Shown here one piece after another: positions 4,458 through 33,376 of a stretch of DNA of 64,000 nt (positions are counted from its first letter, which is position 1; the number at the start of each line of letters is the position of its first letter). Origin of the DNA: Neopusillimonas maritima (GTDB taxonomy: Bacteria > Pseudomonadota > Gammaproteobacteria > Burkholderiales > Burkholderiaceae_B); the NCBI RefSeq assembly GCF_003576595.1, contig NZ_NQOU01000002.1:558001-622000 (forward strand), read 5' to 3'. The position numbers and the translations under genes are program-made. The notes under the pieces are model-generated. The model searched no databases, had not been told where the DNA came from, and was given only the letters and a program-made list of their open reading frames with translations.

Positions 4458-4459
4458 TT

Positions 4460-7192: not shown

Positions 7193-7237
7193 TATGGACC
7201 TCCGTTTGGTCATAGTAGGTAAGAGCTGCGTTTCAAA

Positions 7238-8188: not shown

Positions 8189-8191
8189 GTT

Positions 8192-9933: not shown

Positions 9934-10064
9934 GGCAATAAATTTCAAATAAAAGAATTTATAGAAGCACTTATTTCTGGATAAATCCTATATATCAACG
10001 TTATTAGCGTCAATGCATTAAAATTTAATTCCATTAATTGGACTTACTAAGGGTTTCAACGGAC

Positions 10065-17681: not shown

Positions 17682-17983
17682 TGCGGTTTGCTTCGCGTAA
17701 CTGAACCCCCGGACTCTTGCAAAGTAGGGTCCGCGAATACGGCATCACGCGACTGGACCTGCAATTGCATGCCCAGTATCGCCAGTATTTGCATAAATTG
17801 CTCGACCCGCATGGCGGTTGGATTAGACAATAGTTCTGACACGCGTGACTGTTGCAACCCCAGCCGCTTGCCTAGCTCTTTTTGACTAATTTTTTGTTGC
17901 TTGCGCAAGCCATTCAACAATACGCTGATTTCACGTTCGGTACGTAAAGGAACAGGTTGCAAAGAACCAGGCAGTGTATTCAT
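17675..17983 (-). CDS. hipB: HipB-like antitoxin (second copy)
   Basis: The 102-residue protein has an Xre helix-turn-helix: LRTEREISVLLNGLRKQQKI, ISQKELGKRLGLQQSRVSEL, then MRVEQFMQILAILGMQLQVQ. This arrangement is typical of HipB. The 25-residue tail (DAVFADPTLQESGGSVTRSK) is probably flexible. It lies upstream of and overlaps hipA. The 85 bases upstream (17984-18068) are AT-rich and should contain the promoter and operator, but I could not define a convincing palindrome. Confidence 0.92.
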   Translation of the reverse strand: MNTLPGSLQPVPLRTEREISVLLNGLRKQQKISQKELGKRLGLQQSRVSELLSNPTAMRVEQFMQILAILGMQLQVQSRDAVFADPTLQESGGSVTRSKPQW

Positions 17984-18068: not shown

Positions 18069-19286
18069 CTAAACCGCGCCGGCCTTTTTCAACGACTCAA
18101 TCGTCTGCGCATCAATCCCTAACTCACCCAGCACCTGTTCGGTATGCTGCCCCAGCGTCGGCGGGGGCGTGGTGTATTCAATGGGGGTGCCAGAGAACTT
18201 CATGGGGCTGGCCACTAAATTCAGTGACCCATACGTTTCCGACGGCACTTCCACCCGCATATTGCGTGCCTGCACGTGGGGGTCTTCGAATACGCGGTCA
18301 ATCGTATTAATGGGCCCGCAGGGGAAACCGTTTTCAATGGCAAGCTGACACCATTGATCAATGGTTTTCAGCAACATGCGTTCTTGTAGCAAAGGTACGA
18401 GTTGGTCGCGATTCGCCACGCGCTGGGCATTGGTGCTGAAGCGTTCATCTTCAGCCAAGCCGCCGTAGCCGGCCGTTTCGCAAAAGGCTTTGAATTGGGT
18501 GTCGTTGCCAATGGCTAACATAACGTAGCCGTCGGCACATTGAAATGGCTGGTACGGCACGATAGACGGGTGCGCACTGCCCAACCGTCCCGGCACTTTG
18601 CCGCTTAACAGGTAATTGCTGGCCTGGTTCGCCAGCGAGGCCACTTGCACGTCGAGCAACGCCACGTCGATGTGCTGCCCCTGGCCGGTTTGTGTACGCG
18701 CATAAAGCGCCGCCAGAATGGCCGATGTGGCATACAGGCCCGTCAGAATATCCACCACGGCCACGCCCACTTTTTGCGGGCCGCCACCCGGTACGGTGTC
18801 GGGCTCGCCGGTAATGCTCATTAAGCCACCCATGGCCTGAATAAGAGCATCGTAACCGGGGCGTTCGGCATAAGGGCCGGTATGACCAAAACCCGTAATG
18901 GAACAGTAAATCAGCCTCGGGTTCACCTTGGCCAGGCTGTTGTAATCCAGGCCATACTTTTTCAGGCCGCCGAACTTGTAGTTTTCAACCAGAATATCGG
19001 CCTTTGCCACCAACTCGAGCAATACTTTCTTGCCCTCGGGCTGGGTGAAGTCCAACGTAATGGAACGTTTACCGCGGTTGGCGCAGAAGTAATAGGCAGC
19101 GTCGCGGGGTTCGCCTTCAGCCGTATTCACAAAGGGGGGGCCCCAGGCGCGGGTGTCGTCGCCCTTGCCCGGGCGCTCGACTTTAATAACGTCGGCCCCC
19201 AGGTCGGCCAGGTTCTGGGTTGACCACGGGCCGGCCAGAATTCTGGACAAATCAAGAACAACCACCCCGTTTAACGCGCCTGACAT
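18069..19286 (-). CDS. CaiB/BaiF family CoA transferase
   Basis: The 405-residue protein is a class III CoA transferase. It has VVVLDLSRILAGPWSTQNLA, LGADVIKVERPGKGDDTRAW, ENYKFGGLKKYGLDY and the aspartate region GYDALIQAMGGLMSITGEPD, where the family's catalytic Asp lies. It moves CoA between acids, usually from succinyl-CoA or another short acyl-CoA to a dicarboxylic or hydroxy acid. As last gene of the reductase-enamidase operon it could activate the carboxylic acid end-product, for example glutarate. That substrate is an inference from the pathway model only. Confidence 0.92.
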   Translation of the reverse strand: MSGALNGVVVLDLSRILAGPWSTQNLADLGADVIKVERPGKGDDTRAWGPPFVNTAEGEPRDAAYYFCANRGKRSITLDFTQPEGKKVLLELVAKADILVENYKFGGLKKYGLDYNSLAKVNPRLIYCSITGFGHTGPYAERPGYDALIQAMGGLMSITGEPDTVPGGGPQKVGVAVVDILTGLYATSAILAALYARTQTGQGQHIDVALLDVQVASLANQASNYLLSGKVPGRLGSAHPSIVPYQPFQCADGYVMLAIGNDTQFKAFCETAGYGGLAEDERFSTNAQRVANRDQLVPLLQERMLLKTIDQWCQLAIENGFPCGPINTIDRVFEDPHVQARNMRVEVPSETYGSLNLVASPMKFSGTPIEYTTPPPTLGQHTEQVLGELGIDAQTIESLKKAGAV

Positions 19287-19301
19287 CTACCTCACCCCTT
19301 T

Positions 19302-20492
19302 TTACTTTTCAATCACCGGCAACTCCGTGGCCGGCGGTGTGTTGCGGCTGCGCTGACAACGCACAATACCGTCGATAATAACCATGCCAATACCTGGAAT
19401 ATCACCCAACTGAACACTTTCCAGAATGTTCTCGGCCGGTGTGTGCTGGGCACGGTCCATAATTACGAAGTCGGCCGCACGCCCCACCTCGATCAAGCCG
19501 CAGTCCAGATCGCGCATGCGGGCCGTATTGCCGGTGGCAAAACAGAACGCAATTTCAGCGGGAATGTCGGCCAGGCTGGACAACTGTGCAATCATACGCA
19601 GAATCCCCAAGGGTTGCACACCCGAGCCGGCCGGGCCGTCGGTGCCCAGAATGACACGGTGCAAACAGCCCAGTTCATGGGCATGACGCGCAGTCAGAAT
19701 GGCAATGCGCTCATTACCGTTATGCACAATTTCAATGCCGCGCGTGGAACGCTCACACAATTCACACACATGTTTATAGGGCAACGCCGTATGGCCGCCA
19801 TTAATGTGGCCGATAATGTCGGCATCTGCTTCCAGCACCACGTCTTTGTCGATGAGACCCGAACCTGGAATGGACGGGCCGCCGGTGTGAATGGTGCTTT
19901 GAATGCCGTACTTGCGCGCCCATTTCACCATTTCAGCGGCTTCGTCACCCGCCTTCACGCTACCCAGGCCAATTTCACCCAACAGCTTCACACCCGCGTC
20001 GGCCAGGTCTTTGAAGTCGGACTCGACCATGCCCTTTTCAATCACCGGCGCACCGGCCAAGACTTTCACACCACCTGGGCGGGCATTTTCAAAGGCTCGT
20101 TGCGAAGTAATGGCCAACGCTTTCAAGCCCACAATATCTTTTGGGCGACCGGGATAATGCACTTCACCGGCCGAAATCATGGTGGTCACCCCACCGTTCA
20201 GGGTTGAGTCGATCCAACCGATTTGACCCTGGCGCGGTGTCCAGTCGCCCGCTACGGGGTGAACGTGCGAGTCGATTAGGCCGGGCGCCAACGCAGTACC
20301 CCGGCAATCAATCACGCGATCGGCACCTTCCACATCGCAATCTTTGTATTTACCCACCGCCGCAATGCGGCCGTCGTTCACCACAATGGTGTCGGCTTCA
20401 AGAATGGGGTTGTCGAGGTCACCCGACAAGAGCAAACCAATATTTTTAATGACTACTTTGCCGGATTTGGCTTCGGGAGCTGCTGCTGCCAT
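19302..20492 (-). CDS. Amidohydrolase, enamidase-like
   Basis: The 396-residue protein is an amidohydrolase-superfamily enzyme. It has the metal ligands GLIDSHVHPVAGDW (His-x-His), QSTIHTGG, IIGHINGG and the catalytic aspartate in LGTDGPAGSGVQPLGI. The start has AGGAGG upstream. It resembles the enamidase of nicotinate fermentation, which hydrolyses 6-oxo-1,4,5,6-tetrahydronicotinate to 2-formylglutarate and ammonia. The presence of a 6-hydroxynicotinate reductase homologue in the same operon supports that reading. Without an alignment I cannot exclude another cyclic-amide or imidazolone-type substrate. Confidence 0.8.
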   Translation of the reverse strand: MAAAAPEAKSGKVVIKNIGLLLSGDLDNPILEADTIVVNDGRIAAVGKYKDCDVEGADRVIDCRGTALAPGLIDSHVHPVAGDWTPRQGQIGWIDSTLNGGVTTMISAGEVHYPGRPKDIVGLKALAITSQRAFENARPGGVKVLAGAPVIEKGMVESDFKDLADAGVKLLGEIGLGSVKAGDEAAEMVKWARKYGIQSTIHTGGPSIPGSGLIDKDVVLEADADIIGHINGGHTALPYKHVCELCERSTRGIEIVHNGNERIAILTARHAHELGCLHRVILGTDGPAGSGVQPLGILRMIAQLSSLADIPAEIAFCFATGNTARMRDLDCGLIEVGRAADFVIMDRAQHTPAENILESVQLGDIPGIGMVIIDGIVRCQRSRNTPPATELPVIEK

Positions 20493-20547
20493 GTTGTTCC
20501 TCCTGTTGTATGCCGCGCCCTTTAATTAAGCGCGCGGTGCACATTAT

Positions 20548-21132
20548 TTAACGCAAACCGTCTTCGCCTTTGATTTCATCCTTGGTAAGCCCGCCTACGC
20601 GTGGCAAGGGGCGGCCGGAATCAGTGACGGCCACAGCCACCACAATTTCGTTGGCGCGCGGTGCGTCGGATACGCGGGCTTCTACCGCGTCGAAGTGGGT
20701 GCGCACATAGGCCGCATCTTTATGGCCCAGGGGCACGTCGATTGCAGCACCCACACCCCCCATTTTCTTGGACGACGGTACCAGCGCCGCGCCTTTTTCA
20801 ATGGCTTTGCGTAAGGGTGCGCCCAGCTTGGGGTGCAAAATCGCCGCCGCATGCTCCAGCTCGCCGGCTTCGCCCACAATGGCAGCTTTACCATAGCTTT
20901 CTGCCTGGCCGGGCTGAATACCCAATGCCTGTACGCACTTCTCGCCCAGCAAACCGCCCAATTCTTCACCCGCGGCAATCAGGTCATCCAGGCTTTCAAC
21001 ATATTTACCGGCATACGGGTTTTCAATTACCGCTACCGCCACCGCGCGACGCGTGGGTGGGTTTATTTGCTTGCCCATTTCGATACGGGTTTCGTCAACG
21101 GTGACGACGATCTTGCGAATCTTTGCTGCCAT
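20548..21132 (-). CDS. DUF1185 / 'amino acid synthesis' family protein
   Basis: The 194-residue protein begins MAAKIRKIVVTVDETRIEMG and includes PTRRAVAVAVIENPYAGKYV, YGKAAIVGEAGELEHAAAIL and HFDAVEARVSDAPRANEIVV. These blocks define the DUF1185 (PF06684) family, whose structures have a chorismate-mutase-like fold and no proven reaction. It is a paralogue of the next upstream gene (21267-21920). It lies between the reductase and the enamidase in the operon, so a role in ring opening or handling of the reduced ring is plausible but unproven. The ribosome-binding site AAGGAG is clear. Confidence 0.88.
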   Translation of the reverse strand: MAAKIRKIVVTVDETRIEMGKQINPPTRRAVAVAVIENPYAGKYVESLDDLIAAGEELGGLLGEKCVQALGIQPGQAESYGKAAIVGEAGELEHAAAILHPKLGAPLRKAIEKGAALVPSSKKMGGVGAAIDVPLGHKDAAYVRTHFDAVEARVSDAPRANEIVVAVAVTDSGRPLPRVGGLTKDEIKGEDGLR

Positions 21133-21266
21133 TTTTACTCTCCTTACGGGTCTTTTCTGACACTACTTTTTGCAGAATATCTACTCATTCTTAACCAATC
21201 GGCTTTAACGCGAAACGCTTCGGCAACACGCACGATTACTTGCGAGCGCCGTGTTATTTAACGCGC

Positions 21267-21920
21267 TTAGCGCAAACCGTCGTACTTGCTGATCTGGTCG
21301 GGTGTTAAGCCGCCCACGCGCTGGTGAATGCGCCCACCAGTTGCCATCACCAAAACAAACACAATTTCGTCGCGCGCCGGGGCGCCGGGCACCCACACTT
21401 CCATGGCATCGAAATGGCCACGCACATAGCTGGCGGTAACGTGGGTAAGGGGCACGTCTAAACGCGTACCGGGGTCGCCCACTTTCTTGGTTGAAGGCAC
21501 AATGGAAAGCGCACGCCCCATCTCTAACCCTTTTTGCCCAGAACTTTGACCTTGTTTGTAGGAAGAACGATCGCCCTTCCAGCCCAACAGTTCGCGCATG
21601 GCGTAGCCACCGGGCACATGCCAGAGCGCACCGTGTTCAAGTTCGCCGGCACTACCCACTATGGCACCCTTGCCATAGCTTTCAATATCGTCGGGCGTGA
21701 CTTCCATGGCTTTCACCAGGCGCTCGGCCATTTCCAGGCCCACGGGGTTCAAGGCTTCCATCATGGGCACAATGTCGGGCTCATAGCGCCCGGCATAGGG
21801 GTTTTTCAACACGGCCGCCACCGACCCCCGAATTAACGGCTTATCAGCCACCGGCCCGAATTCATGAAAAATCGTTTCAACCTGGGTTTGGATGTTCCGT
21901 ACTTCAATAAGGTCTGACAT
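21267..21920 (-). CDS. DUF1185 / 'amino acid synthesis' family protein, second paralogue
   Basis: The 217-residue protein shares the family blocks with its neighbour: VAAVLKNPYAGRYEPDIVPM, YGKGAIVGSAGELEHGALWH and HFDAMEVWVPGAPARDEIVF, ending RVGGLTPDQISKYDGLR versus RVGGLTKDEIKGEDGLR. It is longer by an insertion near WHVPGGYAMRELLGWKGDRS. Two different paralogues side by side suggest a hetero-oligomer or two successive steps. The 134-base gap to the next gene downstream (21133-21266) shows no other gene. The start has GGAAGG upstream. Confidence 0.88.
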   Translation of the reverse strand: MSDLIEVRNIQTQVETIFHEFGPVADKPLIRGSVAAVLKNPYAGRYEPDIVPMMEALNPVGLEMAERLVKAMEVTPDDIESYGKGAIVGSAGELEHGALWHVPGGYAMRELLGWKGDRSSYKQGQSSGQKGLEMGRALSIVPSTKKVGDPGTRLDVPLTHVTASYVRGHFDAMEVWVPGAPARDEIVFVLVMATGGRIHQRVGGLTPDQISKYDGLR

Positions 21921-21955
21921 GACGTTCCTTCCTGCTTTCCTGGAAATTTAAAGAA

Positions 21956-22915
21956 TCAGTTCAATGCGTTTTCAATAATGTTTTGCGGCAATATGAAACG
22001 GGCCTGCCCTTGCAACACCAACACTGCGCCCAAAATAGCGCCCTGTTCGAACATAACGCGGGCAGCGGTTTCACCTGCATCCAGCGCCTGCTTTATGGCA
22101 ACGGGCGGCAATGGCCCTACGGCCACTGTGACGGGCAAATCACCTAAATCTGCGTCATCTTTTAAGGTGTTGGCGGGTGCGCGCTCAATGGCATCATGCG
22201 ACACATTCACCTGGTTGGCAATGAGCGTGGCGGCCACGTCGGCCTGTGCCGCTTGCGGTGCAAATACCGTTACGCTGTCGGCAATACCCAGGCTTTGGCT
22301 GCGCCCACGCCAGCCGCTGGTGGCAATCCCGCCAATGCCCATTTCAGGGGTAATGGTGAAACGACCGTCTACCGCCAAGCCGCCGCCTTCAACATGAATC
22401 GCTTCGGGGTTACTAAGCAAGCCCACGGTGTAGTGTCGGCCGGGCGCAAGATGCAAGGCGATATCGCCACCGTTATTTACGTAAGCGCGTGGGAAGTCAG
22501 GGCGCACATCTGCCCCGGACACCATTGCACCCGGCCGCCCCAACAAAGTTTCCAGCACTTCATCGGCCACCGAACCCGCCACCGCCGCCATGGGGGTGAC
22601 GAATTGCGCTCGATGGCGCCAACAGGCGGCAAACATGCGTTGGGCAACTGCCGAATGAAAAGATGCGCGTGGTTCTAATGTATTCGGAATAGGCCGGCGC
22701 AGGGCTTTCAACTCGATCACCAGTTCAGGCAATATCTGGGAAAACCGTTCCCAGGCGCGCTCCAACCCGGCATTAACCGCGTCGGGGTCACCTTCAACCC
22801 CAATAATCAAATCAATCGGGCCATGCTGAAAATGCGTGCGGCCATCGGGCAACGTTGCACACAACGCCCCCGAAGGGGCGCTGCGCGTGCGTTCCTGAAG
22901 CGCGTGCTGCGTCAT
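21956..22915 (-). CDS. UPF0280 family protein (ApbE-like fold)
   Basis: The 319-residue protein matches the UPF0280 family: FQHGPIDLIIGVEGDPDAVN, FVTPMAAVAGSVADEVLETL, AYVNNGGDIALHLAPGRHYT and GIGGIATSGWRGRSQSLGIA. The MAAVAGSVAD and NNGGDIALHL segments resemble those of ApbE-type flavin transferases. It starts 18 bases after the reductase stop. A plausible role is flavin attachment or maturation of the neighbouring reductase, which fits a flavin/iron-sulfur enzyme, but this is inference. Confidence 0.85.
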   Translation of the reverse strand: MTQHALQERTRSAPSGALCATLPDGRTHFQHGPIDLIIGVEGDPDAVNAGLERAWERFSQILPELVIELKALRRPIPNTLEPRASFHSAVAQRMFAACWRHRAQFVTPMAAVAGSVADEVLETLLGRPGAMVSGADVRPDFPRAYVNNGGDIALHLAPGRHYTVGLLSNPEAIHVEGGGLAVDGRFTITPEMGIGGIATSGWRGRSQSLGIADSVTVFAPQAAQADVAATLIANQVNVSHDAIERAPANTLKDDADLGDLPVTVAVGPLPPVAIKQALDAGETAARVMFEQGAILGAVLVLQGQARFILPQNIIENALN

Positions 22916-22933
22916 GCCCGTAGCGCGGGCCGC

Positions 22934-24538
22934 TTAGGCCAGCATGGGTTTACGACCCAGGGGCCAGGGGCTGTTCTCGTCGTGCCATTCAATAATGCGG
23001 TGGCGATCTTTTTCCACAACGTCTTGAATCGAACGCACTGCGTCGGCATGGCCACCCAAACGGGTGTAGTCGTCCAGCTTCATGGAAAACTCGATCGGCG
23101 CCACAATGGCCGGTGTCGGCACATAACCGAATGAGTTGTCGGGCATGCGAAGCACATCGACCATCACGGTAATGCCGCCACCCGGCCAGATATACGCGGG
23201 GGCGCCGCCACACGTTACGTTCACAAGCGACGTTTTAATGGAGTTCGTTAGCCAAATGGGGTTTTCGGTGACCCCGGCACGCAAAGAGCCACCCGCACCC
23301 GCCAGGAACAGCACGCTGGCCAGCGAGGGCTCGCAATTTTCACCGATGCGCTCCACTGTTTTCTGCAATGCATCGGGCATGGGCTTACGCTGCGGTTTCA
23401 GGTCGTCGTCAAGCTCGTAGTATTCAGCATGCTCGCCGGTGGTGGACGTAATCAACATACGCAAGCCCGGCCAGGCCACGTCGGGGTTGAAGCCTTCAAT
23501 AATGGCGAGCGGGTCGGAAATGTCGGTACCGCCCCAACCGTTACCGGGGTTGGCCACCTGGAAGTAACGGCCCGGTGTGGATTTACGCCCTTTCATTTTG
23601 ATGCCGGTAGGGGGAATATCCAGACAACGCCCGGCCTGGTGCTCGCTGAGCACCCCGGTAATGTGATCGTCGACCACCACCACTTCGTCGGTGTGACCGA
23701 ACCATTGCTTGGCAAAAATGCCGATCGCCGCTGAACCGCAGCCCACCCGCATGCGCTTTTCTTCCACGCCGTCGACAATGGGGGCTTTGCCGGCCTGAAC
23801 CACCAGTTGCGCACCGCCGTCGATCGACAGCTCTACCGCTTCTTTATTACCCAGCGCCATCATCATGTCGCAGGTCATGCGGCCTTCTTTCTTGCTGCCA
23901 CCGGTTAAGTGGTGCACGCCACCCAATGACAACATTTGCGAACCATATTCCGCGGTTGTAACGTGGCCGACAATTTCGCCTTTAAAACGAATATTCGATT
24001 GCTCCGGGCCCAGATAACGATCAGTATCGATTTTGACCTTGAAGCTGCAATAACTGAAGATACCTTCGGTGACCACAGTGACCATATCCACGTCGTTCGC
24101 CTTCGACGAGACAATGAACGGTGCAGGTTTGTAATCGGGGTAGGTGGTACCTGAACCAATGCCGCTTACGAACAAATCGTTCGGGTCGGAAACGGCATTC
24201 GCCTCAACATCGCGCGTGCGGGCATTCACCAGGCCCTCGGGGGCGTCGCCCGCAACGGGTTCGTGGCGCGTGGCCAGCCCCGTATCGTCGAGCCGGCGCA
24301 TCAGGATAACGGGGTCGATACGAACCAAGTTGCCGTCTTCATTACCCCAACGATCACAGGCACCCGTGCGGCCATCCGTAATTTGGCACAGCACCGGACA
24401 GGCGTTGCACTCTACCTTGTTTGAAGCCATTTTCTCGCTTCGCGGCTTGGATTTTTCCAATACCGTTGGTCCCGAGGTACTGGACGTGGTGTCGTCCAGG
24501 TTATCCATGCTGTGATCGATTTTTGTGTGTTCAGTCAT
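22934..24538 (-). CDS. 6-hydroxynicotinate reductase-like iron-sulfur protein
   Basis: I chose ATG 24538 (AAGGAG 9 bases upstream), giving 534 residues. Cys44, Cys47, Cys51 and Cys61 (VECNACPVLC, RTGACDRWGN) form a likely 4Fe-4S site after a disordered leader. The rest includes SGIGSGTTYPDYKPAPFIVS, MRVGCGSAAIGIFAKQWFGH and CGGAPAYIWPGGGITVMVDV. The sequence fits the family named after 6-hydroxynicotinate reductase of Eubacterium barkeri, which uses reduced ferredoxin to make 6-oxotetrahydronicotinate. It is the first gene of the operon with UPF0280, two DUF1185 proteins, the enamidase and a CoA transferase. A 7Fe ferredoxin is encoded 7 kb away. The family name rests on recall, so the substrate could be another N-heterocycle. 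Confidence 0.82.
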   Translation of the reverse strand: MTEHTKIDHSMDNLDDTTSSTSGPTVLEKSKPRSEKMASNKVECNACPVLCQITDGRTGACDRWGNEDGNLVRIDPVILMRRLDDTGLATRHEPVAGDAPEGLVNARTRDVEANAVSDPNDLFVSGIGSGTTYPDYKPAPFIVSSKANDVDMVTVVTEGIFSYCSFKVKIDTDRYLGPEQSNIRFKGEIVGHVTTAEYGSQMLSLGGVHHLTGGSKKEGRMTCDMMMALGNKEAVELSIDGGAQLVVQAGKAPIVDGVEEKRMRVGCGSAAIGIFAKQWFGHTDEVVVVDDHITGVLSEHQAGRCLDIPPTGIKMKGRKSTPGRYFQVANPGNGWGGTDISDPLAIIEGFNPDVAWPGLRMLITSTTGEHAEYYELDDDLKPQRKPMPDALQKTVERIGENCEPSLASVLFLAGAGGSLRAGVTENPIWLTNSIKTSLVNVTCGGAPAYIWPGGGITVMVDVLRMPDNSFGYVPTPAIVAPIEFSMKLDDYTRLGGHADAVRSIQDVVEKDRHRIIEWHDENSPWPLGRKPMLA

Positions 24539-24583
24539 TTCTGACAACTCCTTGTGCTGTGTGCACGCCACCCACTTACCACG

Positions 24584-24660
24584 TGTTAGTTACATTTATA
24601 TTTTATAAACACTATATTTGATAATAGCTTAAAAGATTTTTGACGACAATAATTGTAGTG
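24584..24660. promoter_or_regulatory. Promoter region of the reductase operon with CACTA-type half-sites
   Basis: The AT-rich stretch between the reductase and the isochorismatase gene contains AGTTACATTTAT (24588-24599), CACTATATTTGA (24610-24621) and TTGTAGTG (24653-24660, reverse of CACTACAA). These resemble the CACTACATAAAT half-site before the two TetR genes. The matches are imperfect, so regulation by the same protein is only suggested. Confidence 0.35.
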
Positions 24661-24687
24661 TATACGTGCAAATTTCGTACGCTAACC

Positions 24688-25365
24688 CTATGGCCACAAA
24701 TGCGGTACATCGTCGGCCATCAACACGTCACCAAACAAGGTTTGTACGTTGTTCAGGGTCGCGTTGTGTTCTTCATCCGTTAACGTGGCGTTGGCGTCCG
24801 CCAGAAACACCACCTGGTAGTTCATTTGCTGTGCATCACGCGCGGTACTTTCCGAGCAGCAATTACTCATGGTGCCGGAAATAATCACGGTCTCGATACC
24901 GCGCTCTTTCAATATGCGATCCAACTCACTTGTACCGGGCGTAAAACCACTGAAACGCGTCTTGTTGACGATCAGATCGTCGTCTTGCACCTCAAGCTCG
25001 GGCCATAACTGATGACCATGCGCACCCTCCCAAAAAGCCTCGGCAGACGCTCGTTTGGATTCCGGCGACGCAATCACGTTGTACCAAACCGTCCACGGGG
25101 TCGCTTCGGTTTCATCGTAGGTAAAACGCAAGAACACATTCACGCCGCCTGCGCGGCGCACCTCGGCGCTGACCTTATTAATGTTGGGCACAATCTCGCG
25201 CGCCAGCGGAATTTCCACGGCGCCGCCCGGCTCAACAAAGCCATTCTGCATATCAATAATTAAGTGGGCAGTTTTGCTAGGGTCAATTCGATGAAAAGCC
25301 TGAACACGACCGCGATGACCACGGCTACGCTCAACCAATTCGGGGTTCAATTGAATCTTATGCAT
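24688..25365 (-). CDS. Isochorismatase-fold cysteine hydrolase
   Basis: The 225-residue protein has the Asp-Lys-Cys catalytic triad of the family: Asp38 in LIIDMQNGF, Lys in IVNKTRFSGFTPG, and Cys in GTMSNCCSESTARDA (the second cysteine aligns with the nucleophile). It is related to N-carbamoyl and amide hydrolases and not to true isochorismatases. It overlaps the livM-type permease gene by 8 bases and ends the transporter operon. It probably hydrolyses an imported or ring-opened amide, releasing ammonia. The CC pair at the active site is unusual. The exact substrate is unknown. Confidence 0.9.
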   Translation of the reverse strand: MHKIQLNPELVERSRGHRGRVQAFHRIDPSKTAHLIIDMQNGFVEPGGAVEIPLAREIVPNINKVSAEVRRAGGVNVFLRFTYDETEATPWTVWYNVIASPESKRASAEAFWEGAHGHQLWPELEVQDDDLIVNKTRFSGFTPGTSELDRILKERGIETVIISGTMSNCCSESTARDAQQMNYQVVFLADANATLTDEEHNATLNNVQTLFGDVLMADDVPHLWP

Positions 25366-26380: not shown

Positions 26381-26381
26381 A

Positions 26382-27236
26382 TCAACGCTTCCGGGTAATG
26401 AGGCCTTCCGGGAAAAGGCGAATAAGGACAATAGCCAGAATGAACACAGCCACCTGCGCCGCCACCTGGGTATCAATAGAGGCAATCACCGTATTGGTGG
26501 AGCCGATTAGGCCTACACCCAGCACGACCCCCATAAGATGCGCCACCCCACCCACCATAATGGCCAGGAACGCCGGGATCAGAAAGCCGCCGCCCATTTG
26601 CGGATCAACACTCATGATGGGAGCCATAACCGCACCCGCAAAACCGGCCAACGCAGCGCCGAAAGCGAACGTCCAGCGGTCCATACTGCGCGTGTTCAAA
26701 CCCAGCGAGGCCGCCATAGGACGATTAGCAATCACACCTCGCACCGCCAGGCCCAAGTGTGTGCGATAAAACACAATGAACACGGCCAGGGTCACCAGCA
26801 AGGCCATGCCCATAATGAATAAGCGCATCGACGGATACACCACACCCAAAATATTCACAGGCTCGGGAATGGGGTTCACAATACTTTGTGACGTGGGCCC
26901 AAAACCAATCACAATGGCTTGTTTGATGACAATCGACAAACCCCACGTGGCCAAAATGGTATCGATAAAGCGGTGATAAACATGTCGGATCACAAGCTGC
27001 TCAATCACTATGCCGATGACCGCCAGAAAAAGCGGTGCCAGAATAAGTGACAACCAGTAAGGCATCTCCATCGCCTGAACGGCCAACACGGTGTAAGCAC
27101 CCAACAGAAAAAATTCACCGTGCGCCATATTAATGACATTCATCAGGCCAAAAATCACCACCAGCCCCAACGCCACCAACAGCAGGCTTAGGGAATAGCT
27201 CAGGGTGTCCAGGCCCAGTTCAATTGCAAATTCCAT
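26382..27236 (-). CDS. ABC permease, LivH/UrtB type
   Basis: The 284-residue protein contains FGLMNVINMAHGEFFLLGAY, the LivH/UrtB motif, GFGPTSQSIVNPIPEPVNIL, and MVGGVAHLMGVVLGVGLIGS near the C-terminus. It has about eight membrane helices. It lies between the LivF-type ATPase and the LivM-type permease in the operon. Features such as MAASLGLNTRSMDRWTFAFG are common in urea/amide importers of this family. Confidence 0.93.
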   Translation of the reverse strand: MEFAIELGLDTLSYSLSLLLVALGLVVIFGLMNVINMAHGEFFLLGAYTVLAVQAMEMPYWLSLILAPLFLAVIGIVIEQLVIRHVYHRFIDTILATWGLSIVIKQAIVIGFGPTSQSIVNPIPEPVNILGVVYPSMRLFIMGMALLVTLAVFIVFYRTHLGLAVRGVIANRPMAASLGLNTRSMDRWTFAFGAALAGFAGAVMAPIMSVDPQMGGGFLIPAFLAIMVGGVAHLMGVVLGVGLIGSTNTVIASIDTQVAAQVAVFILAIVLIRLFPEGLITRKR

Positions 27237-27254
27237 TTATTGCTCCATAGAAAC

Positions 27255-27962
27255 CTAGACCGCCAAGTACTTGTGAATGGGCACCGGGTCATCCCTCAGC
27301 GCCTGTACTTCGTCTGTTTCATAAACCACCTGACCGTTTTCCATGAACAGGCAACGTTGCGCCATGCCCAGTACCAGCTCCATATTTTGCTCAACCAACA
27401 AAATGGTGAGGCCTTGCTCTTTGGCAATGTCACTTAATACCCGGCCGATATCCTGCACAATCGAAGGCTGAATCCCTTCCGACGGCTCATCAAGAAGCAG
27501 CAGCTGGGGCTTGGCAATTAAGGCCCGCACAATGGCCAACTGTTGTTGTTGCCCACCGGAAAAACTACCCGCGCGCTGAGTACGGCGCTCACGCAAAATG
27601 GGGAACAGGTCAAAGGCCCAGTCGGGAATCTCCTTCGACTTACCTGGGTGCCCCAGCAAACCCATACGCAAATTTTCTTCCACGGTGAAATCGGAAAAAA
27701 TATCGCGCCCCTGAGGTACGTAACCCATTCCCATGCGCGCAATTTCATACGGTTTTTTGCCGGCCAACTCCTGACCGTCGAACAACATGGAACCTTGGGA
27801 AATGGCCACGTGGCCCATCAGGGCTTTCAAGAAAGTGGTTTTGCCCATACCGTTACGGCCCAACAATGCCACGACCTCGCCCTTTTTCATCTCCATGGAG
27901 AATCCATCGAGCACCCGACTGCCGGCCAAGTAGCCCGCAATCACGTTTTCAACCTTCAACAT
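27255..27962 (-). CDS. ABC transporter ATP-binding protein, LivF/UrtE type
   Basis: The 235-residue ATPase has Walker A GRNGMGKTTFLKALMG, QGRDIFSDFTVEENLRMGLL, signature FSGGQQQQLAIVRAL, Walker B LLLLDEPSEGIQPSIV and LLVEQNMELVLGMAQR. DEPSEGIQPSIVQDI is typical of urea-type (UrtE) ATPases and less so of amino-acid LivF. Its start overlaps the upstream ATPase stop (TAATG). It ends 18 bases before the LivH-type permease. Confidence 0.93.
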   Translation of the reverse strand: MLKVENVIAGYLAGSRVLDGFSMEMKKGEVVALLGRNGMGKTTFLKALMGHVAISQGSMLFDGQELAGKKPYEIARMGMGYVPQGRDIFSDFTVEENLRMGLLGHPGKSKEIPDWAFDLFPILRERRTQRAGSFSGGQQQQLAIVRALIAKPQLLLLDEPSEGIQPSIVQDIGRVLSDIAKEQGLTILLVEQNMELVLGMAQRCLFMENGQVVYETDEVQALRDDPVPIHKYLAV

Positions 27963-28696
27963 TACGCGCTTCCTCCAAGGTACGCCGCCACGACTTCGGG
28001 GTCATTCTGAATATCGTCCAACGACCCTTCACGCACAATCCGACCACGCAGCATCACCACCAAGCGGCAATCCAACGCCCGCACGAAGCTCATATCGTGT
28101 TCAATCACCAACACGGTTTTCCCGTACTCCGTTTGCAAGCGACGCACCAACTCCGCTGTTTTCTGCGTTTCGGGAACGGACATCCCTGCCGTGGGTTCGT
28201 CGAGCATAATGAGGTCGGCGTCGTACGCCAGCAACATGGCAATTTCCAACCACTGCTTTTCCCCATGCGCCAAGGTTTCCACTTTATCGGTGGCTTTATC
28301 GGTTAAGCCGCACAGATCAAGCAGTTCGGCCAATCGCTCGGTGGGACTGGAAAACAAGGTTGACATCACCCCCGCTTTGCCGCCCTGACCGGCCAACGGA
28401 ATCATCAGGTTTTCCACCACACTGAGTTCAGGGTAAACACCCGGAATTTGAAATTTACGTGAAATCCCGCGGCGCGCCACCAGATACGCCGGCATGCCGG
28501 TTACCTCGGTGCCGTTCAAAAACACCTGCCCCTCTTCAGGTCGCAAGTTCCCGGTAATAATGTTGAACAGCGTCGTTTTGCCACAGCCGTTCGGCCCAAT
28601 AATGCAATTAACGGTACCCGGCTGCACGGTCAACGAGAGGCCATGCAGCACGGTGATACCGCCAAAGCGCTTCACCACAGATTTAACTTCCAGCAT
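27962..28696 (-). CDS. ABC transporter ATP-binding protein, LivG/UrtD type
   Basis: The 244-residue ATPase has Walker A GPNGCGKTTLFNIITG, RRGISRKFQIPGVYPELSVV, a variant signature (LAHGEKQWLEIAMLL), Walker B LIMLDEPTAGMSVPET and IEHDMSFVRALDCRLV. The LAHGEKQWLEI signature and FQIPGVY segment are characteristic of UrtD-like subunits. It follows the binding-protein gene by 33 bases. Confidence 0.93.
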   Translation of the reverse strand: MLEVKSVVKRFGGITVLHGLSLTVQPGTVNCIIGPNGCGKTTLFNIITGNLRPEEGQVFLNGTEVTGMPAYLVARRGISRKFQIPGVYPELSVVENLMIPLAGQGGKAGVMSTLFSSPTERLAELLDLCGLTDKATDKVETLAHGEKQWLEIAMLLAYDADLIMLDEPTAGMSVPETQKTAELVRRLQTEYGKTVLVIEHDMSFVRALDCRLVVMLRGRIVREGSLDDIQNDPEVVAAYLGGSA

Positions 28697-28729
28697 GCCG
28701 CCCCCTCGTTACCCGACAACACATCACTT

Positions 28730-29938
28730 TCAGGCTGCGCATTGCTGTGAAGCTTTAATCAGCCCCATATCTTCCAGAACCTGCATCTTGCCGCCCTGCG
28801 CTTGCGCAATGAGGATGTTCAGGTCAGCATGACGATCACTTTCGCGCAGGGTGACTTTGCCATTGCCTGACATCAGAGTCTGGCCTACGATGGCATCGGT
28901 AATGGCTTCCTTGTCGGCCGAATTCGCTTTCTTGATCGCCTCAATGTAAAACTGGGTCATGGTGTAGTGCGCATCCACCGTGTTACTCACGATGGCGTCT
29001 TCACCGAAACGATCACGCACTTTCCTAACCAAGGCTTTTGCTTCCGGCTTGTCGAGTGCTTCAGTAAAGTTACATACGGTGTAAATACCTTCGGACTCAT
29101 TCGGCGTTAGGCCGGCCAAATAGTTTTCACTGAAACCGAAGAAAGCCACTTTCACTTTGTCTTGCAGACCCGCGGCGGCGAACTGTTTAATGAATGTCAC
29201 CGCGTCGGCGCCCACAATCGACATCACCACTACATCGGCACCCGAAGACTCTATTTTGCGCAAGGTGCTGGTGTAGTCTTTCACACCCCAGGGCGTGTAT
29301 TCTTCCGCCACCACTTTCGACCCCTTCTCAGCCGCCACTTTGCCAATGGCTTCGTTGATTTTGCGCGGCCATACGTAGTCGCTGCCAATCAGGAACATAT
29401 TCTTACCCACGTTCTCGGCCAGGTACGGAATGAAAGTGCTTACCCACTGGTCAGGCACCGAACTGTACAGCGTGACGTAGCGGCTGCATGTGCCTCCTTC
29501 GTAATCGGTGGCATAGAGCAAGGGCGTTTTGTAGCGTTCCACCAGTGGCTGAATCGCATCCCGTTCGGCGCTCGTCACGGGTCCGATGATGGCATTCACG
29601 CGATAACGGCGAATCAACTCATTGGTACGCTCCACCGCGGTTTTGGGGTCGGTTTTGGTATCGGCGCGAATCATCTCAAACATGCGGCCGCCCAGAATGC
29701 CGCCCGACTCATTCACTTCCTCGAGCGCCAGGCGCGTTGCCTGACCTCCTTGTGCTCCCAATGCTTCCAGGCCACCGGAAAACGGCTGCAAAATGCCAAC
29801 CTTAATGGCCTCTTCGGCACGGGACAATGTCGGCAAACCAACCAGGCCTGCGCCCATTAAACCGGCCGAGGCCAACATCATGGAACGCCGGCGAGGGCTA
29901 ACAAGGAAAGAACGGGTAAGGGTGTGTTTGTTACTCAT
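28730..29938 (-). CDS. Amide/urea-type substrate-binding protein of ABC transporter
   Basis: I chose ATG 29938 with AAGGAG six bases upstream, giving 402 residues. A signal sequence with a basic leader (SPRRRSMMLASAGLMGAGLV) precedes IKVGILQPFSGGLEALGAQG. The segments YEGGTCSRYVTLYSSVPDQW and NMFLIGSDYVWPRKINEAIG match the amide/urea-binding branch of the Liv-type proteins (AmiC/FmdD/UrtA-like). The ligand is probably a small amide or ureide, fitting the two amidohydrolase-type genes that flank the transporter. The Arg-Arg-Arg leader may be a Tat signal. Confidence 0.92.
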   Translation of the reverse strand: MSNKHTLTRSFLVSPRRRSMMLASAGLMGAGLVGLPTLSRAEEAIKVGILQPFSGGLEALGAQGGQATRLALEEVNESGGILGGRMFEMIRADTKTDPKTAVERTNELIRRYRVNAIIGPVTSAERDAIQPLVERYKTPLLYATDYEGGTCSRYVTLYSSVPDQWVSTFIPYLAENVGKNMFLIGSDYVWPRKINEAIGKVAAEKGSKVVAEEYTPWGVKDYTSTLRKIESSGADVVVMSIVGADAVTFIKQFAAAGLQDKVKVAFFGFSENYLAGLTPNESEGIYTVCNFTEALDKPEAKALVRKVRDRFGEDAIVSNTVDAHYTMTQFYIEAIKKANSADKEAITDAIVGQTLMSGNGKVTLRESDRHADLNILIAQAQGGKMQVLEDMGLIKASQQCAA

Positions 29939-29978
29939 GTGTTGCTCCTTCACTTTTGTAGATCGCGCCTGAGCGCAT

Positions 29979-30620
29979 TTATTGGCATTCCACCAAACGC
30001 AATTCACTGCCTTGCTTTAACGACTGAATAACGGAATCGGATCGCGACACAACACCGAAATGAGTGGCGATGTCATATAAAGAGGAAGCTTGTTCTCGCG
30101 GTCCGGTTGCGGCAACGCCGTCTTCAACCACGACCACGCGATACCCCAGGAAAAAAGCATCGTGAACAGTTGAACGCACGCAGATATTAGTCACTACGCC
30201 CATCACAACCAGTGTGTCGACGCCCAGATCCTTTAGCGTCAAATCCAGGTCGGTATTGAAAAAGCCCGAAAAACGGCGCTTGGTTACGTAATGGTCTTGC
30301 GGCTTTTGCTCTAGCTCATCCACGATGGCCGAACCCCATTCGCCTTCCATGCAGTGCGGAGTACGTTTCAAAAACTCACGATCGCACTTCATACCGTGAC
30401 GGTGCTTATCCTGGATATGCACCACCGGCACATCCACTTCCCGCGCGGCTCTCATCACCGCATTCTGCGGTGGATAGAGCACGTCAGCCCCGGGCAACAT
30501 CATGGCGCCGCCCGCCGTACAGAAATCATTAATCATGTCAATTACCAACACGGCCGTACGGGAGGCGTCCAGAGCAATAATTTCATCAGACTGACGATGT
30601 TCGGAAAAAGATGAAGTCAT
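29979..30620 (-). CDS. Isochorismatase-fold cysteine hydrolase, second copy
   Basis: The 213-residue protein has Asp28 in VLVIDMINDF, the catalytic Lys in VTKRRFSGFFNTDL, and Cys in VMGVVTNICVRSTVHDAFFL. The KRRFSGFFNTDLDL and TNICVRSTVHDA blocks are like those of ureidoacrylate, biuret and N-carbamoyl hydrolases, so a carbamoyl or amide substrate is likely. It lies between the TetR gene and the binding-protein gene, probably in one operon. It differs substantially from the copy at 24688, so the two may act on successive intermediates. Confidence 0.9.
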   Translation of the reverse strand: MTSSFSEHRQSDEIIALDASRTAVLVIDMINDFCTAGGAMMLPGADVLYPPQNAVMRAAREVDVPVVHIQDKHRHGMKCDREFLKRTPHCMEGEWGSAIVDELEQKPQDHYVTKRRFSGFFNTDLDLTLKDLGVDTLVVMGVVTNICVRSTVHDAFFLGYRVVVVEDGVAATGPREQASSLYDIATHFGVVSRSDSVIQSLKQGSELRLVECQ

Positions 30621-30652
30621 ACGGAAATCCTGCGCAATAACAAATGAATGAA

Positions 30653-31411
30653 TCAGAAAGAGGGGGCGCCGACTGACGCCGACTGCCCCGCATCGATAGG
30701 TGACGCCTTGCGCGCATCGGTCTGACTGGTCTGCTTAACCGACCGCAAAGTCACGTCGGTAATGAACGCTTTCCAGTGCGCCAGGTTTTCGGCCGAACGC
30801 AAATCCACATTCAGAAACGCGCTAAGCGTAAAACGGTTGGACAAATAGAAATAGCCGAGCGCCGCAATCTCGATATAAAGGTCGCGTGCACTGATGTCAT
30901 TACGAAACAAGCCTTTCTTGACCCCGGCGACCAACACCTGATCCAGCACCTGGACCGCCGGTGACGACAACTTGGACACCCGGGCGGATTTCTTAATATG
31001 CTTACCCTGCTGCAAGTTCTCGCTGTTGAGCAGCGTCATCATTTCCGGGTGATCAAGGTAGTACTGCCAAACAAAATGCACCACGGTGGTCAACGCCTTT
31101 TCCGGGTCGTTCAGGTCGAACTCCAGTTCCGCCTCTGCCTCGTTCATACGGGCGTAAGCAATTTCAAGCACCTCAACAAACAAGCGCTCTTTACTGCCGA
31201 AGTAGTAATAAATCATGCGGTCGTGCGTGCGCGACAACCTCGAGATTTGCTCGATTTTGCCGCCCGCAAAGCCGTGGCGGGAAAATACACGGGTGGCGGC
31301 GCGCAAAATGGCGTCGCGCGTTTTCTGAGCGCGCGCCTGGCCGACAACGGCAACCGGCGCCGTGGTTTTGCGCCGAGTGCGCGGGGAAGTTTTACTGCTG
31401 CTTGTTGCCAT
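30653..31411 (-). CDS. TetR family regulator, paralogue of the one at 15575-16291
   Basis: The 252-residue protein has a basic leader (TSPRTRRKTTAPVAVVGQAR), the helix-turn-helix AATRVFSRHGFAGGKIEQIS followed by THDRMIYYYFGSKERLF, and the C-terminal blocks WQYYLDHPEMMTLLNSENLQ and YFYLSNRFTLSAFLNVDL. These match the TetR paralogue beside the Rieske oxygenase. It is divergent from the ferredoxin gene and lies 32 bases upstream of the hydrolase-transporter operon, so it could control both directions. The C-terminal tail (SQTDARKASPIDAGQSASVG) is probably disordered. Confidence 0.9.
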   Translation of the reverse strand: MATSSSKTSPRTRRKTTAPVAVVGQARAQKTRDAILRAATRVFSRHGFAGGKIEQISRLSRTHDRMIYYYFGSKERLFVEVLEIAYARMNEAEAELEFDLNDPEKALTTVVHFVWQYYLDHPEMMTLLNSENLQQGKHIKKSARVSKLSSPAVQVLDQVLVAGVKKGLFRNDISARDLYIEIAALGYFYLSNRFTLSAFLNVDLRSAENLAHWKAFITDVTLRSVKQTSQTDARKASPIDAGQSASVGAPSF

Positions 31412-31458
31412 GGCGCCATTCAGAAACTATGATTGAGGCCATTCTGGGGGCATAAATA

Positions 31459-31497
31459 AATGTAGTCAATTCCGAATAATTTGGTATTTACTACATT
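31459..31497. promoter_or_regulatory. Paired inverted half-sites, candidate TetR operator
   Basis: AATGTAGT (31459-31466) and ACTACATT (31490-31497) are exact inverted copies, centred about three helical turns apart. CATAAA and TTTATG lie outside them. The region separates the TetR gene from the divergent ferredoxin gene. ACTACATT matches the half-site found before the paralogous TetR gene at 15575. Confidence 0.5.
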
Positions 31498-31556
31498 AAA
31501 TTTATGCCGTAATATGTGGAAAATTTTTGTGTTCACTCACACCATAGGTTTAAAAG

Positions 31557-31880
31557 ATGACGCACGTCGTAACCGAGTCCTGTATTAAGTGCCGCTATAC
31601 TGATTGTGTCGATGTCTGTCCGGTCGACTGTTTTCATATTGGCCCCAATTTTCTGGTAATTGATCCCGACGAGTGCATCGATTGCGCCGTCTGTGTGCCA
31701 GAGTGCCCGGTTGAAGCTATTTTTGCGGAAGAGGATCTGCCTCAGGATCAACTCGATTTCATTCGCATCAATGCCGAACTGGCACCTGAATGGGAGGTCA
31801 TTGATTCCAGTATCGGCTCGCTGCCAGACGCCGAGGAGTGGAAAGACAAACCCAATAAACGCGAGTTGCTCGAGCGCTAA
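31557..31880 (+). CDS. fdxA: 7Fe ferredoxin (FdxA type)
   Basis: The 107-residue protein has Cys9-x2-Cys12-x4-Cys17-x3-Cys21-Pro with Cys25, and Cys40-x2-Cys43-x2-Cys46-x3-Cys50-Pro. This is the pattern of ferredoxins with one 3Fe-4S and one 4Fe-4S cluster. The C-terminal extension ([20 protein letters not shown]) is standard for FdxA. Such proteins carry single electrons at low potential in the cytoplasm. Its place beside an island encoding a 6-hydroxynicotinate reductase-like enzyme, whose family uses ferredoxin, suggests it is the electron donor. The aldehyde dehydrogenase gene follows after 65 bases. Confidence 0.95.
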
Positions 31881-31945
31881 ACGTCGGCCCTGAACACCGG
31901 CGTGTCACTCGTTTCAAGTGATCGCGACGTTAAACAGGACGCACA

Positions 31946-33376
31946 ATGCATAAAAACTGGATTGCCGGCGAATGGGTCGGCTCATCAAACGTTCAAAAAA
32001 ATCTCAACCCATCGAATCTGAACGATGTGGTGGGTGAATATGTTCGCGCCTCGGCCGAGCAGGTTGAAACCGCCATCGAGGCGGCGCAACATGCGTGGCC
32101 CGCCTGGTCACTCAGCACTCCGCAACAGCGTTTCGACGCGCTCGACGCCATCGGCTCGGAAATTCTGGCACGCAAGAATGAACTGGGCGAACTGCTGGCG
32201 CGCGAAGAAGGCAAAACCTTGCCTGAAGCCATTGGCGAAGCAGCCCGCGCGGGGCAAATTTTCAAGTTTTTTGCCGGTGAAGTACTGCGCACGGGCGGCG
32301 AATCACTCCCCTCTGTGCGACCCGGCCTGCAAGTGGAAATTTCCCGTGAGCCGCTGGGCGTGGTGGGCATTATTACGCCGTGGAACTTTCCTGTTGCTAT
32401 TCCGGCCTGGAAAATCGCCCCGGCGCTGGCTTACGGCAATTGCGTTGTCTTCAAACCAGCCGATCTGGTTCCGGGTTCCGCCTGGGCGCTGGCCGAAATT
32501 ATCAGCCGCAGCGGGCTACCTGCAGGCGTATTCAATTTAGTAATGGGCCGTGGTTCGGTTGTGGGCGCCGCCATGGTGGAAGACCCCCGCATTAACGCTA
32601 TTACCTTCACCGGCTCGGTGGGTACCGGGCGCAACCTGTTGAACCAGGCGGCCGAACGGCAGAAAAAGGTACAGCTGGAATTAGGCGGCAAAAACCCGCT
32701 GGTGGTTCTGAATGACGCCGATATGGAAACCGCGCTCGACGTGGCCATTCAAGGTGCATTCTATTCAACCGGCCAGCGCTGCACCGCCAGCAGCCGCATT
32801 ATTGTGGAACAAGGCATTTACGACTCGTTCACCCAAGAACTGGCCAAACGCACAGCAGCCTTGCGCGTGGGTGATGCACTGAACCCGGACACGCAAATTG
32901 GCCCTGTGGCCGATGAGTCGCAACTGGAACAAGACCTGGATTACGTGCGCGTTGGCCAGGAGGAAGGTGCCGCCTTGCTGTGTGGCGGTGAACGTGTGGA
33001 ACGCGACACACCCGGCTATTACTTCACCCCTGCTGTATTGGCCAATGCCACCAACGATATGCGCTCGTCTCGCGAAGAGATTTTCGGGCCGGTGGCCAGC
33101 GTGATCAAAGCCGACGACTACGACCATGCGCTGGCCTTGGCCAACGACACGGAGTTCGGCTTAAGTTCGGGTATTTGCACCACCTCGCTAAAACACGCCA
33201 GCCATTTCAAACGTCATATCCAAGCAGGCATGGTCATGGTGAATGTACCCACTGCCGGGGTCGATTACCATGTGCCGTTCGGCGGCCGTAAAGGTTCCAG
33301 CTACGGGCCTCGCGAGCAAGGCCGCTACGCCCAGGAGTTTTTCACGATTGTAAAAACGGCCTATACCAAGGCCTGA
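31946..33376 (+). CDS. Aldehyde dehydrogenase, ketoglutarate-semialdehyde type
   Basis: The 476-residue enzyme has the NAD-binding GSVGTGRNLL, general-base Glu245 in QLELGGKNPLVVL, and nucleophile Cys279 in STGQRCTASSRI. WNFPVAIPAWKIAPALAYGN and EEIFGPVASVIKADDYDHAL are standard. The GQRCTASSR form is typical of alpha-ketoglutaric semialdehyde dehydrogenases. In a reductive nicotinate-type route it could oxidise formylglutarate or a related semialdehyde; that substrate is inferred. It is transcribed with the ferredoxin and ends at a strong terminator. Confidence 0.93.
   Translation: MHKNWIAGEWVGSSNVQKNLNPSNLNDVVGEYVRASAEQVETAIEAAQHAWPAWSLSTPQQRFDALDAIGSEILARKNELGELLAREEGKTLPEAIGEAARAGQIFKFFAGEVLRTGGESLPSVRPGLQVEISREPLGVVGIITPWNFPVAIPAWKIAPALAYGNCVVFKPADLVPGSAWALAEIISRSGLPAGVFNLVMGRGSVVGAAMVEDPRINAITFTGSVGTGRNLLNQAAERQKKVQLELGGKNPLVVLNDADMETALDVAIQGAFYSTGQRCTASSRIIVEQGIYDSFTQELAKRTAALRVGDALNPDTQIGPVADESQLEQDLDYVRVGQEEGAALLCGGERVERDTPGYYFTPAVLANATNDMRSSREEIFGPVASVIKADDYDHALALANDTEFGLSSGICTTSLKHASHFKRHIQAGMVMVNVPTAGVDYHVPFGGRKGSSYGPREQGRYAQEFFTIVKTAYTKA

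Follow-up and report, generated by a model that had tools for sequence, protein, structure and literature searches.

A candidate gene island for reductive 6-hydroxynicotinate degradation in Neopusillimonas maritima

A stretch of 64,000 nucleotides from the genome of Neopusillimonas maritima (contig NZ_NQOU01000002.1, positions 558,001 to 622,000; hereafter the window) carries at positions 18069-33376 a gene island around a homologue of 6-hydroxynicotinate reductase (HnR). Its products probably carry out the later steps of reductive nicotinate breakdown, those that lead from 6-hydroxynicotinate to glutaryl-CoA, and a UPF0280 protein and two DUF1185 proteins would serve the reductase. From the gene content, homology, synteny and co-occurrence observed, we infer the following reactions and electron path. 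6-Hydroxynicotinate would come from a nicotinate dehydrogenase encoded on another contig of the same genome (C20) or from an imported amide, and HnR would reduce it to 1,4,5,6-tetrahydro-6-oxonicotinate with electrons from the 7Fe ferredoxin FdxA. An enamidase would then open the ring and release ammonia to give 2-formylglutarate, whose loss of CO2, possibly spontaneous, would yield glutarate semialdehyde. The latter would be oxidized to glutarate by an aldehyde dehydrogenase, activated to glutaryl-CoA by a CoA transferase and converted to crotonyl-CoA by a glutaryl-CoA dehydrogenase encoded on contig C11. The UPF0280 and DUF1185 proteins may have a maturation or partner role for HnR.

Fourteen genes of the island are co-directional on the minus strand (18069-31411), with intergenic gaps of -104 to +134 bp. 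From 31411 downwards they encode a TetR-type regulator, the isochorismatase-fold cysteine hydrolase A, five proteins of a urea-type (Urt) importer, hydrolase B, HnR, UPF0280, two DUF1185 proteins, the enamidase homologue and the CoA transferase. The genes for FdxA and the aldehyde dehydrogenase form a pair that is divergent from the TetR gene, with 145 bp between them. The gene set is not a product of chance, as near relatives conserve the same set. Family searches recovered all gene types that the original prediction had listed; the two enzymes described there as amidohydrolase-type are isochorismatase-fold cysteine hydrolases (24688-25365 and 29979-30620; PF00857), and the UPF0280 gene and both DUF1185 genes had been overlooked.

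Reductase, ring-opening hydrolase and the route to glutaryl-CoA

The HnR gene (22934-24571, minus strand) was listed as an open reading frame that opens with GTG, and near relatives share an internal start, MTEHTK, 11 codons in. The corresponding enzyme of Eubacterium barkeri (Hnr) reduces 6-hydroxynicotinate and contains a covalent flavin, one [2Fe-2S] and two [4Fe-4S] clusters. Among 95 HnR sequences, Cys 62, 72, 175, 278 and 413 occur in all, Cys 55 and 58 in 92 (three gaps) and Cys 316 and 454 in 84; this total of at most nine conserved cysteines is below the twelve required by three all-cysteine clusters. No Pfam or NCBIfam family matched HnR at E<=1e-3, and a relaxed Pfam threshold revealed GCV_T_C in 8/8 members (best E 0.0031, window protein 0.16). 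A search for solved relatives gave none by sequence at E<=1, and by fold a best E of 0.23 with a poor model (pLDDT 65.1). Plasmid records often give relatives of HnR the name '6-hydroxynicotinate reductase' or hnr, alphaproteobacterial relatives with 59-61% identity include proteins annotated hnr, and genes annotated hnr on Neorhizobium and Paracoccaceae plasmids lie within about 9 kb of annotated nicotinate dehydrogenase genes nicA/nicB. An Hnr homologue from Bradyrhizobiaceae is 42% identical to the E. barkeri enzyme (PMC3511419, in excerpt).

The enamidase homologue (19302-20492, minus strand) is related over its full length to a proven enzyme. It shares 184 of 380 aligned residues (48%) with the E. 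barkeri enamidase 2VUN (E=1e-114), and H76, H78, E173, H202, H229 and D285, which we take to be the metal-binding residues, are identical in both proteins. The comparison with characterized enamidases that had been proposed as a check thus grouped the protein with the E. barkeri enzyme and did not refute the prediction.

The CaiB/family III CoA transferase (18069-19286, minus strand; PF02515, 1e-133) is probably a succinyl-CoA:glutarate CoA-transferase, since its best NCBIfam match, the succinate--glutarate CoA-transferase family NF052585, scores about 200 bits ahead of other families. Its gene adjoins that of the enamidase in six of seven near-relative regions (L152-L156, L158); in the seventh, L157 from genome G029, the stretch holds no match. 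The semialdehyde dehydrogenase (31946-33376, plus strand; PF00171, 1.2e-163) is proposed to act on glutarate semialdehyde. The glutaryl-CoA dehydrogenase that had been suggested as a target for a genome-wide check is encoded on C11 (3eom, E=5e-224; six acyl-CoA dehydrogenases were found and one was compared with solved structures). HnR, the ring hydrolase, a putative glutarate CoA-transferase (below its cut-off) and glutaryl-CoA dehydrogenase therefore all occur in one genome. Homology and context support these steps of the original prediction: reduction and opening of the ring, oxidation of the aldehyde and its activation with CoA, the product probably being glutaryl-CoA; for the ferredoxin-driven mode of reduction, the support is the gene context, that is, an FdxA gene in the island (31557-31880, plus strand; NF045490, 158 bits, cut-off 135).

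Partner proteins, distribution and the nicotinate dehydrogenase

A scan of genome contigs (genome_contigs) yielded at least 594 pattern matches, 582 of which were confirmed as HnR relatives, and a search of plasmids gave 26 records with relatives; hundreds of bacterial genomes thus carry relatives of this reductase. The 80 best loci, whose titles are mainly Burkholderiales or Betaproteobacteria, include 54 that are fully flanked, with at least 9 kb on each side of HnR. All 54 contain a branched-chain-type ABC importer, 53 a molybdenum hydroxylase (51 of the NicB type, two of the XDH type), 52 an enamidase, 37 a ferredoxin-NADP reductase and 11 an FdxA-like ferredoxin. UPF0280 and at least one copy of DUF1185 were found in every one of these loci, and both DUF1185 copies in 48.

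This strict linkage, together with the covalent flavin of E. barkeri Hnr, suggests that UPF0280 (21956-22915, minus strand; COG2122, ApbE superfamily; NF003322 above cut-off) is a maturation factor of HnR. Its AlphaFold model (pLDDT 90.5) finds DVU1097 as the nearest Foldseek match (7.8e-10), and ranks 3-39 are ApbE, FmnB and Ftp chains with E values of 2.4e-4 to 1e-2 and TM-scores of just 0.26-0.45; the predicted fold is that of ApbE at superfamily level. An hhalign comparison with ApbE (E=0.0074, probability 5%) keeps the GGD, ATSG and ADAxxT segments and gives no counterpart of the HTLDPRTG segment of the ApbE active site. Genome G029 contains HnR and UPF0280, and a search there returned no ApbE match at E<=0.001. 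The ApbE-type flavinylation motif [ST]GA[ST] occurs in none of the 95 HnR sequences. This result speaks against an ApbE-like transfer of flavin by UPF0280, as does a report on the COG2122 family, which is linked there to homocysteine synthesis and whose homology seems to miss the flavin-binding region (PMC5764234, in excerpt).

The two DUF1185 proteins are encoded at 21267-21920 (protein 1; PF06684, 2.5e-66; solved relative 3byq, 5.5e-50) and 20548-21132 (protein 2; PF06684, 7.6e-73), both on the minus strand. A function in amino-acid synthesis, to which the name of the family refers, was rejected for them; in the excerpt of PMC2954203 its basis is the fold and a context with transporters of the branched-chain amino acid type. 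The linkage to HnR makes the orphan UPF0280 and DUF1185 families testable as parts of ferredoxin-linked ring reduction in respiring bacteria.

In a set of 61 related genomes, HnR relatives occur in 11, the window's own genome (G000) included. Within the window's family (f1, 37 genomes), HnR is present in nine genomes and an enamidase orthologue in the same nine (a fragment in G004). Nicotinate dehydrogenase with at least 54% identity was found in 13 of the 37, namely in 9/9 genomes with HnR and in 4/28 without it (Fisher p 5.7e-6 by genome, 5.3e-4 by genus; matches of 35-40%, in f1 those of G030, G033 and G036, are omitted). The 6-hydroxynicotinate-consuming NicC has close matches in nine genomes (matches below 69% omitted), and its association with HnR is weak (p 0.023, by genus 0.22); each dehydrogenase genome has HnR, NicC or both.

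The dehydrogenase of the window's own genome was sought as proposed and located on C20, where a NicB-like molybdenum subunit (757 aa), NicC, a NicA-like 2Fe-2S subunit, a cytochrome c subunit and a branched-chain-type ABC importer are predicted. This locus thus appears from homology to encode a nicotinate dehydrogenase that has an ABC importer of its own. Within the locus (L148, 7741-14759) the NicB-like enzyme is in two pieces: the 757-aa molybdenum subunit and a 932-aa protein with a cytochrome c domain are encoded on opposite strands and flank NicC and NicA. The original prediction had pointed out that the window has no molybdenum hydroxylase for nicotinate. Such an enzyme is indeed absent from the island, but excluding nicotinate as the entry substrate on this ground was rejected, because its dehydrogenase is encoded elsewhere in the genome.

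Counter-evidence and alternative substrates

Several observations weigh against the proposed pathway. The CoA transferase scores 517 bits (NF052585 cut-off 750), and the best family of the aldehyde dehydrogenase is the alpha-ketoglutaric semialdehyde dehydrogenase NF042993 (542 bits, cut-off 770). The importer (25358-30007, minus strand) is of the Urt type, and none of its five subunits reaches the curated score of the UrtABCDE urea transporter: UrtC-like permease (25358-26485; TIGR03408, 210 bits, cut-off 296), UrtB-like permease (26382-27236; TIGR03409, 241.5, cut-off 250), UrtE-like ATPase (27255-27962; TIGR03410, 284.1, cut-off 285.8), UrtD-like ATPase (27962-28696; TIGR03411, 266, cut-off 304) and UrtA-like substrate-binding protein (28730-30007; TIGR03407, 241, cut-off 493). 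Because of these scores, the substrates of the transferase, the aldehyde dehydrogenase and the Urt proteins are putative and taken from the best-ranked families. For the decarboxylation of 2-formylglutarate no candidate enzyme was identified. The co-occurrence tests ignore shared ancestry. Matches to the CoA transferase, aldehyde dehydrogenase and isochorismatases occur in 0/54 flanked loci, and UrtB or UrtC is never the best match there at any importer position; the window's gene arrangement is therefore local to one clade, being seen in its own genus and in G010, G020 and G021. No FdxA of the island type was found in G004, where HnR lies on a short contig of a draft in 440 contigs (90% complete), the sole FdxA match of G029 is on a contig other than that of HnR, and family searches of the island proteins revealed no ferredoxin-NADP reductase. 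Finally, NicC adjoining the dehydrogenase on C20 (5eow, E=1e-156) and nicF, nicX and nicD on contig C21 of the same genome form an alternative sink for 6-hydroxynicotinate, so that the island could serve another ring.

The points on electron supply also bear on the view, which appears unlikely, that the ferredoxin and the aldehyde dehydrogenase are housekeeping neighbours outside the pathway. FdxA is common in proteobacteria, and this genome has a second copy (72%) on C11, followed there by a gene 33% identical to ferredoxin-NADP reductase, the enzyme type that the island lacks; moreover, 43 of the 54 flanked loci have no FdxA-like match at E<=1e-10. Set against this, the FdxA-aldehyde dehydrogenase pair and the block from HnR to the CoA transferase are retained in 7/8 genomes of the window's HnR clade, where the pair flanks the island and the gene content between it and HnR varies, and FdxA-like genes lie by HnR in 11/54 other loci, ferredoxin-NADP reductase genes in 37/54.

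It is also conceivable, if rather improbable, that HnR reduces a different hydroxylated N-heterocycle and that its homology to the nicotinate enzyme marks the reaction type only. The presence of NicC and nicFXD for 6-hydroxynicotinate in this genome fits such a function, as does the variety of partners in the HnR family, which pairs with hydroxylases of the NicB or XDH/FAD type and with ring openers of the enamidase or HyuA/HyuB type and may therefore have several substrates. In nine annotated alphaproteobacterial plasmid loci, for instance, HyuA/HyuB-type genes were found in seven and an amidohydrolase gene in two within the stretch fetched. An HnR tree of 47 rows (30 of the 80 loci, 10 near relatives, six plasmid loci and the window) groups the window with its near relatives, Herminiimonas L012 and L013/L026 (100/99). 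The clusters of L012, L013 and L026, the nearest sisters of the window's HnR clade, carry the XDH-type hydroxylase, for which a search without positive control gave no match at E<=1e-100 in the nine HnR genomes of f1. However, the island's enamidase and that of E. barkeri share 48% identity, and HnR co-occurs with nicotinate dehydrogenase. In G004, G010, G020 and G029 HnR is the obvious sink for 6-hydroxynicotinate, because these genomes hold the dehydrogenase and no close NicC (G010 and G020 carry NicC-like proteins of 36-44%). The same four genomes led to rejection of the idea that the island is superfluous beside the oxidative genes.

Three further loci deserve mention. The record L091, a metagenome-assembled genome titled Bordetella parapertussis, possibly a mislabel, has an HnR cluster with an XDH-type hydroxylase. 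On C21 (L181, 9773-15027), the neighbours of nicF, nicX and nicD are a pair of Rieske dioxygenase genes and a gene for an Amidohydro_2 protein, and the stretch gave no match to NicC; this arrangement suggests that 2,5-dihydroxypyridine may also arise from another pyridine. On C19 (L185, 4052-16124 of the stretch 718001-735000), a NicX-like protein (35%), a weak branched-chain-type importer, a CaiB-like CoA transferase (35%) and a NicF-like protein (32%) possibly constitute a second ring-degradation locus.

A Rieske oxygenase gene (14376-15422, minus strand; PF19112, PF00355; 3gb4, 6.5e-45) lies 7.5 kb from HnR and is linked to the island, of which it may or may not be a member. Among the relatives of the protein are dicamba O-demethylase and, with a weaker match, the methylxanthine N-demethylase NdmA. 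Its orthologues (at least 68% identity, lower matches being omitted) occur in 7/9 HnR genomes and 0/28 others of f1 (p 3.5e-6 by genome, 1.2e-4 by genus, ancestry ignored). Homologues within 8 kb of HnR are found in Pseudosulfitobacter (2 records), Sagittula, Sulfitobacter pontiacus, L062, L068 and G038, some of them in the same gene run as HnR; for some of these distant records the reference for scoring was the L096 Rieske protein, which is 50% identical to that of the window. Beside it lies the gene of a conserved 352-aa protein (13302-14360, minus strand; neither a Pfam family at 1e-5 nor a solved relative at 0.01 was found), which also adjoins the Rieske gene in G001, G002, G003, G020 and L062. 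A second TetR regulator (15575-16291, plus strand) is 48% identical to the TetR of the island (30653-31411, minus strand; TetR_C_29). The linkage of Rieske genes to HnR in the family and in distant bacteria suggests that the pathway is also fed by a methylated pyridine.

A stronger form of this idea would make a methylated or amidated pyridine the natural input. N-methyl-2-pyridone-5-carboxamide, a human NAD end product, or trigonelline, for example, would be imported by Urt, deamidated by the isochorismatase-fold hydrolases, N-demethylated by the Rieske enzyme and passed on to HnR, the pyridone thus reaching the reductase without any molybdenum hydroxylase. Besides the position, confinement and distant linkage of the Rieske gene and the similarity of the two TetR regulators, the joint behaviour of Urt and the two hydrolases speaks for this input: hydrolase A (29979-30620; PF00857, 1.2e-46; RutB-like, below cut-off) and hydrolase B (24688-25365; PF00857, 1.3e-38; amide/ureide type, RutB/BiuH-like, below cut-offs), both encoded on the minus strand, are gained or lost with the importer as one unit, present in the islands of G000, G001, G003 and G020 and missing from those of G002, G010 and G021. 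The proposal is nevertheless doubtful. The Rieske assignment is by homology, dicamba-type relatives O-demethylate and others hydroxylate; the gene is on a contig other than that of HnR in G010 and G021 and has no match at E<=1e-60 in G004 and G029; weaker relatives (38-44%) also occur in HnR-free f1 genomes; isochorismatases are found in 0/54 flanked loci; and the genera with HnR possibly form a single clade. Still less probable is a comprehensive scheme in which an unrecorded route leads from an N-methylated pyridine through import, deamidation, N-demethylation and ferredoxin-driven reduction to glutaryl-CoA, UPF0280 is a dedicated HnR maturase, perhaps with non-ApbE flavin attachment, DUF1185 is an obligate partner, and 6-hydroxynicotinate enters two branches, of which that of NicC requires oxygen and that of HnR does not.

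Relation to known systems and neighbouring genes

To our knowledge, the biochemistry of this reductase type is confined to one fermenting clostridium, complemented by older Azorhizobium physiology. The nicotinate fermentation cluster of E. barkeri with Hnr and enamidase, reportedly described by Alhapel in 2006, shares the enzyme types for ring reduction and ring opening with the island. The fermentation continues to 2-methyleneglutarate and propionate, whereas the aldehyde dehydrogenase and CoA transferase found here suggest glutarate and glutaryl-CoA, and the island is without a nicotinate dehydrogenase. In the oxidative (maleamate) nic pathway, for example that of Paraburkholderia L166, nicotinate dehydrogenase and 6-hydroxynicotinate are common to both routes, and its NicC, NicX, NicD and NicF are also encoded in this genome; its O2-dependent ring hydroxylation and dioxygenase opening differ, and none of its genes is in the island. 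This genome thus allows a direct comparison of oxygen-dependent and oxygen-independent branches of 6-hydroxynicotinate degradation.

A reductive route in a respiring bacterium, which the original prediction considered notable, is not the first of its kind. In aerobic Azorhizobium caulinodans nicotinate is degraded through glutarate, and a homologue of E. barkeri Hnr is part of a conserved cluster in this species and in Bradyrhizobiaceae SG-6C (PMC3511419, in excerpt). According to the same excerpt, the likeness extends to the tetrahydro-oxonicotinate and glutarate route, an ABC importer and conserved proteins of unknown function. In the SG-6C-type cluster the importer genes and those for steps one to three are together (PMC3511419). 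In the present genome, by contrast, nicotinate dehydrogenase and its importer are encoded away from the island, on a different contig, and ferredoxin, aldehyde dehydrogenase and CoA transferase lie within the island. The COG2122-DUF39-NIL/ferredoxin system of homocysteine synthesis likewise unites the UPF0280 family and a ferredoxin-domain protein in a reductive conversion, with another partner enzyme and in another pathway (PMC5764234, in excerpt). Because the Azorhizobium route and the SG-6C cluster are published and relatives so numerous, the island is not new in kind. What is new is the presence of ferredoxin and glutarate genes in the island, the occurrence of NicC genes in the same genome and the linkage of a Rieske oxygenase. 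A literature search, with most subscription papers outside it and leaving PMC12472160 (one mention of the reductase) out of account, found no experimental work on the module from any betaproteobacterium and nothing that joins it to a Rieske demethylase.

The window contains two HipA-type genes, at 2234-3466 and at 16302-17681, the latter with a helix-turn-helix partner (17675-17983). This pair lies between the genes of the CoA transferase and the second TetR, as it does in G003, and looks inserted, since no HipA match is found between these genes in G002 or G020. A second catabolic-looking run at 3480-9948 encodes an asparaginase-type enzyme, a branched-chain-type ABC importer and a polysaccharide-deacetylase-fold protein, accompanied by an IclR regulator (10038-10841).

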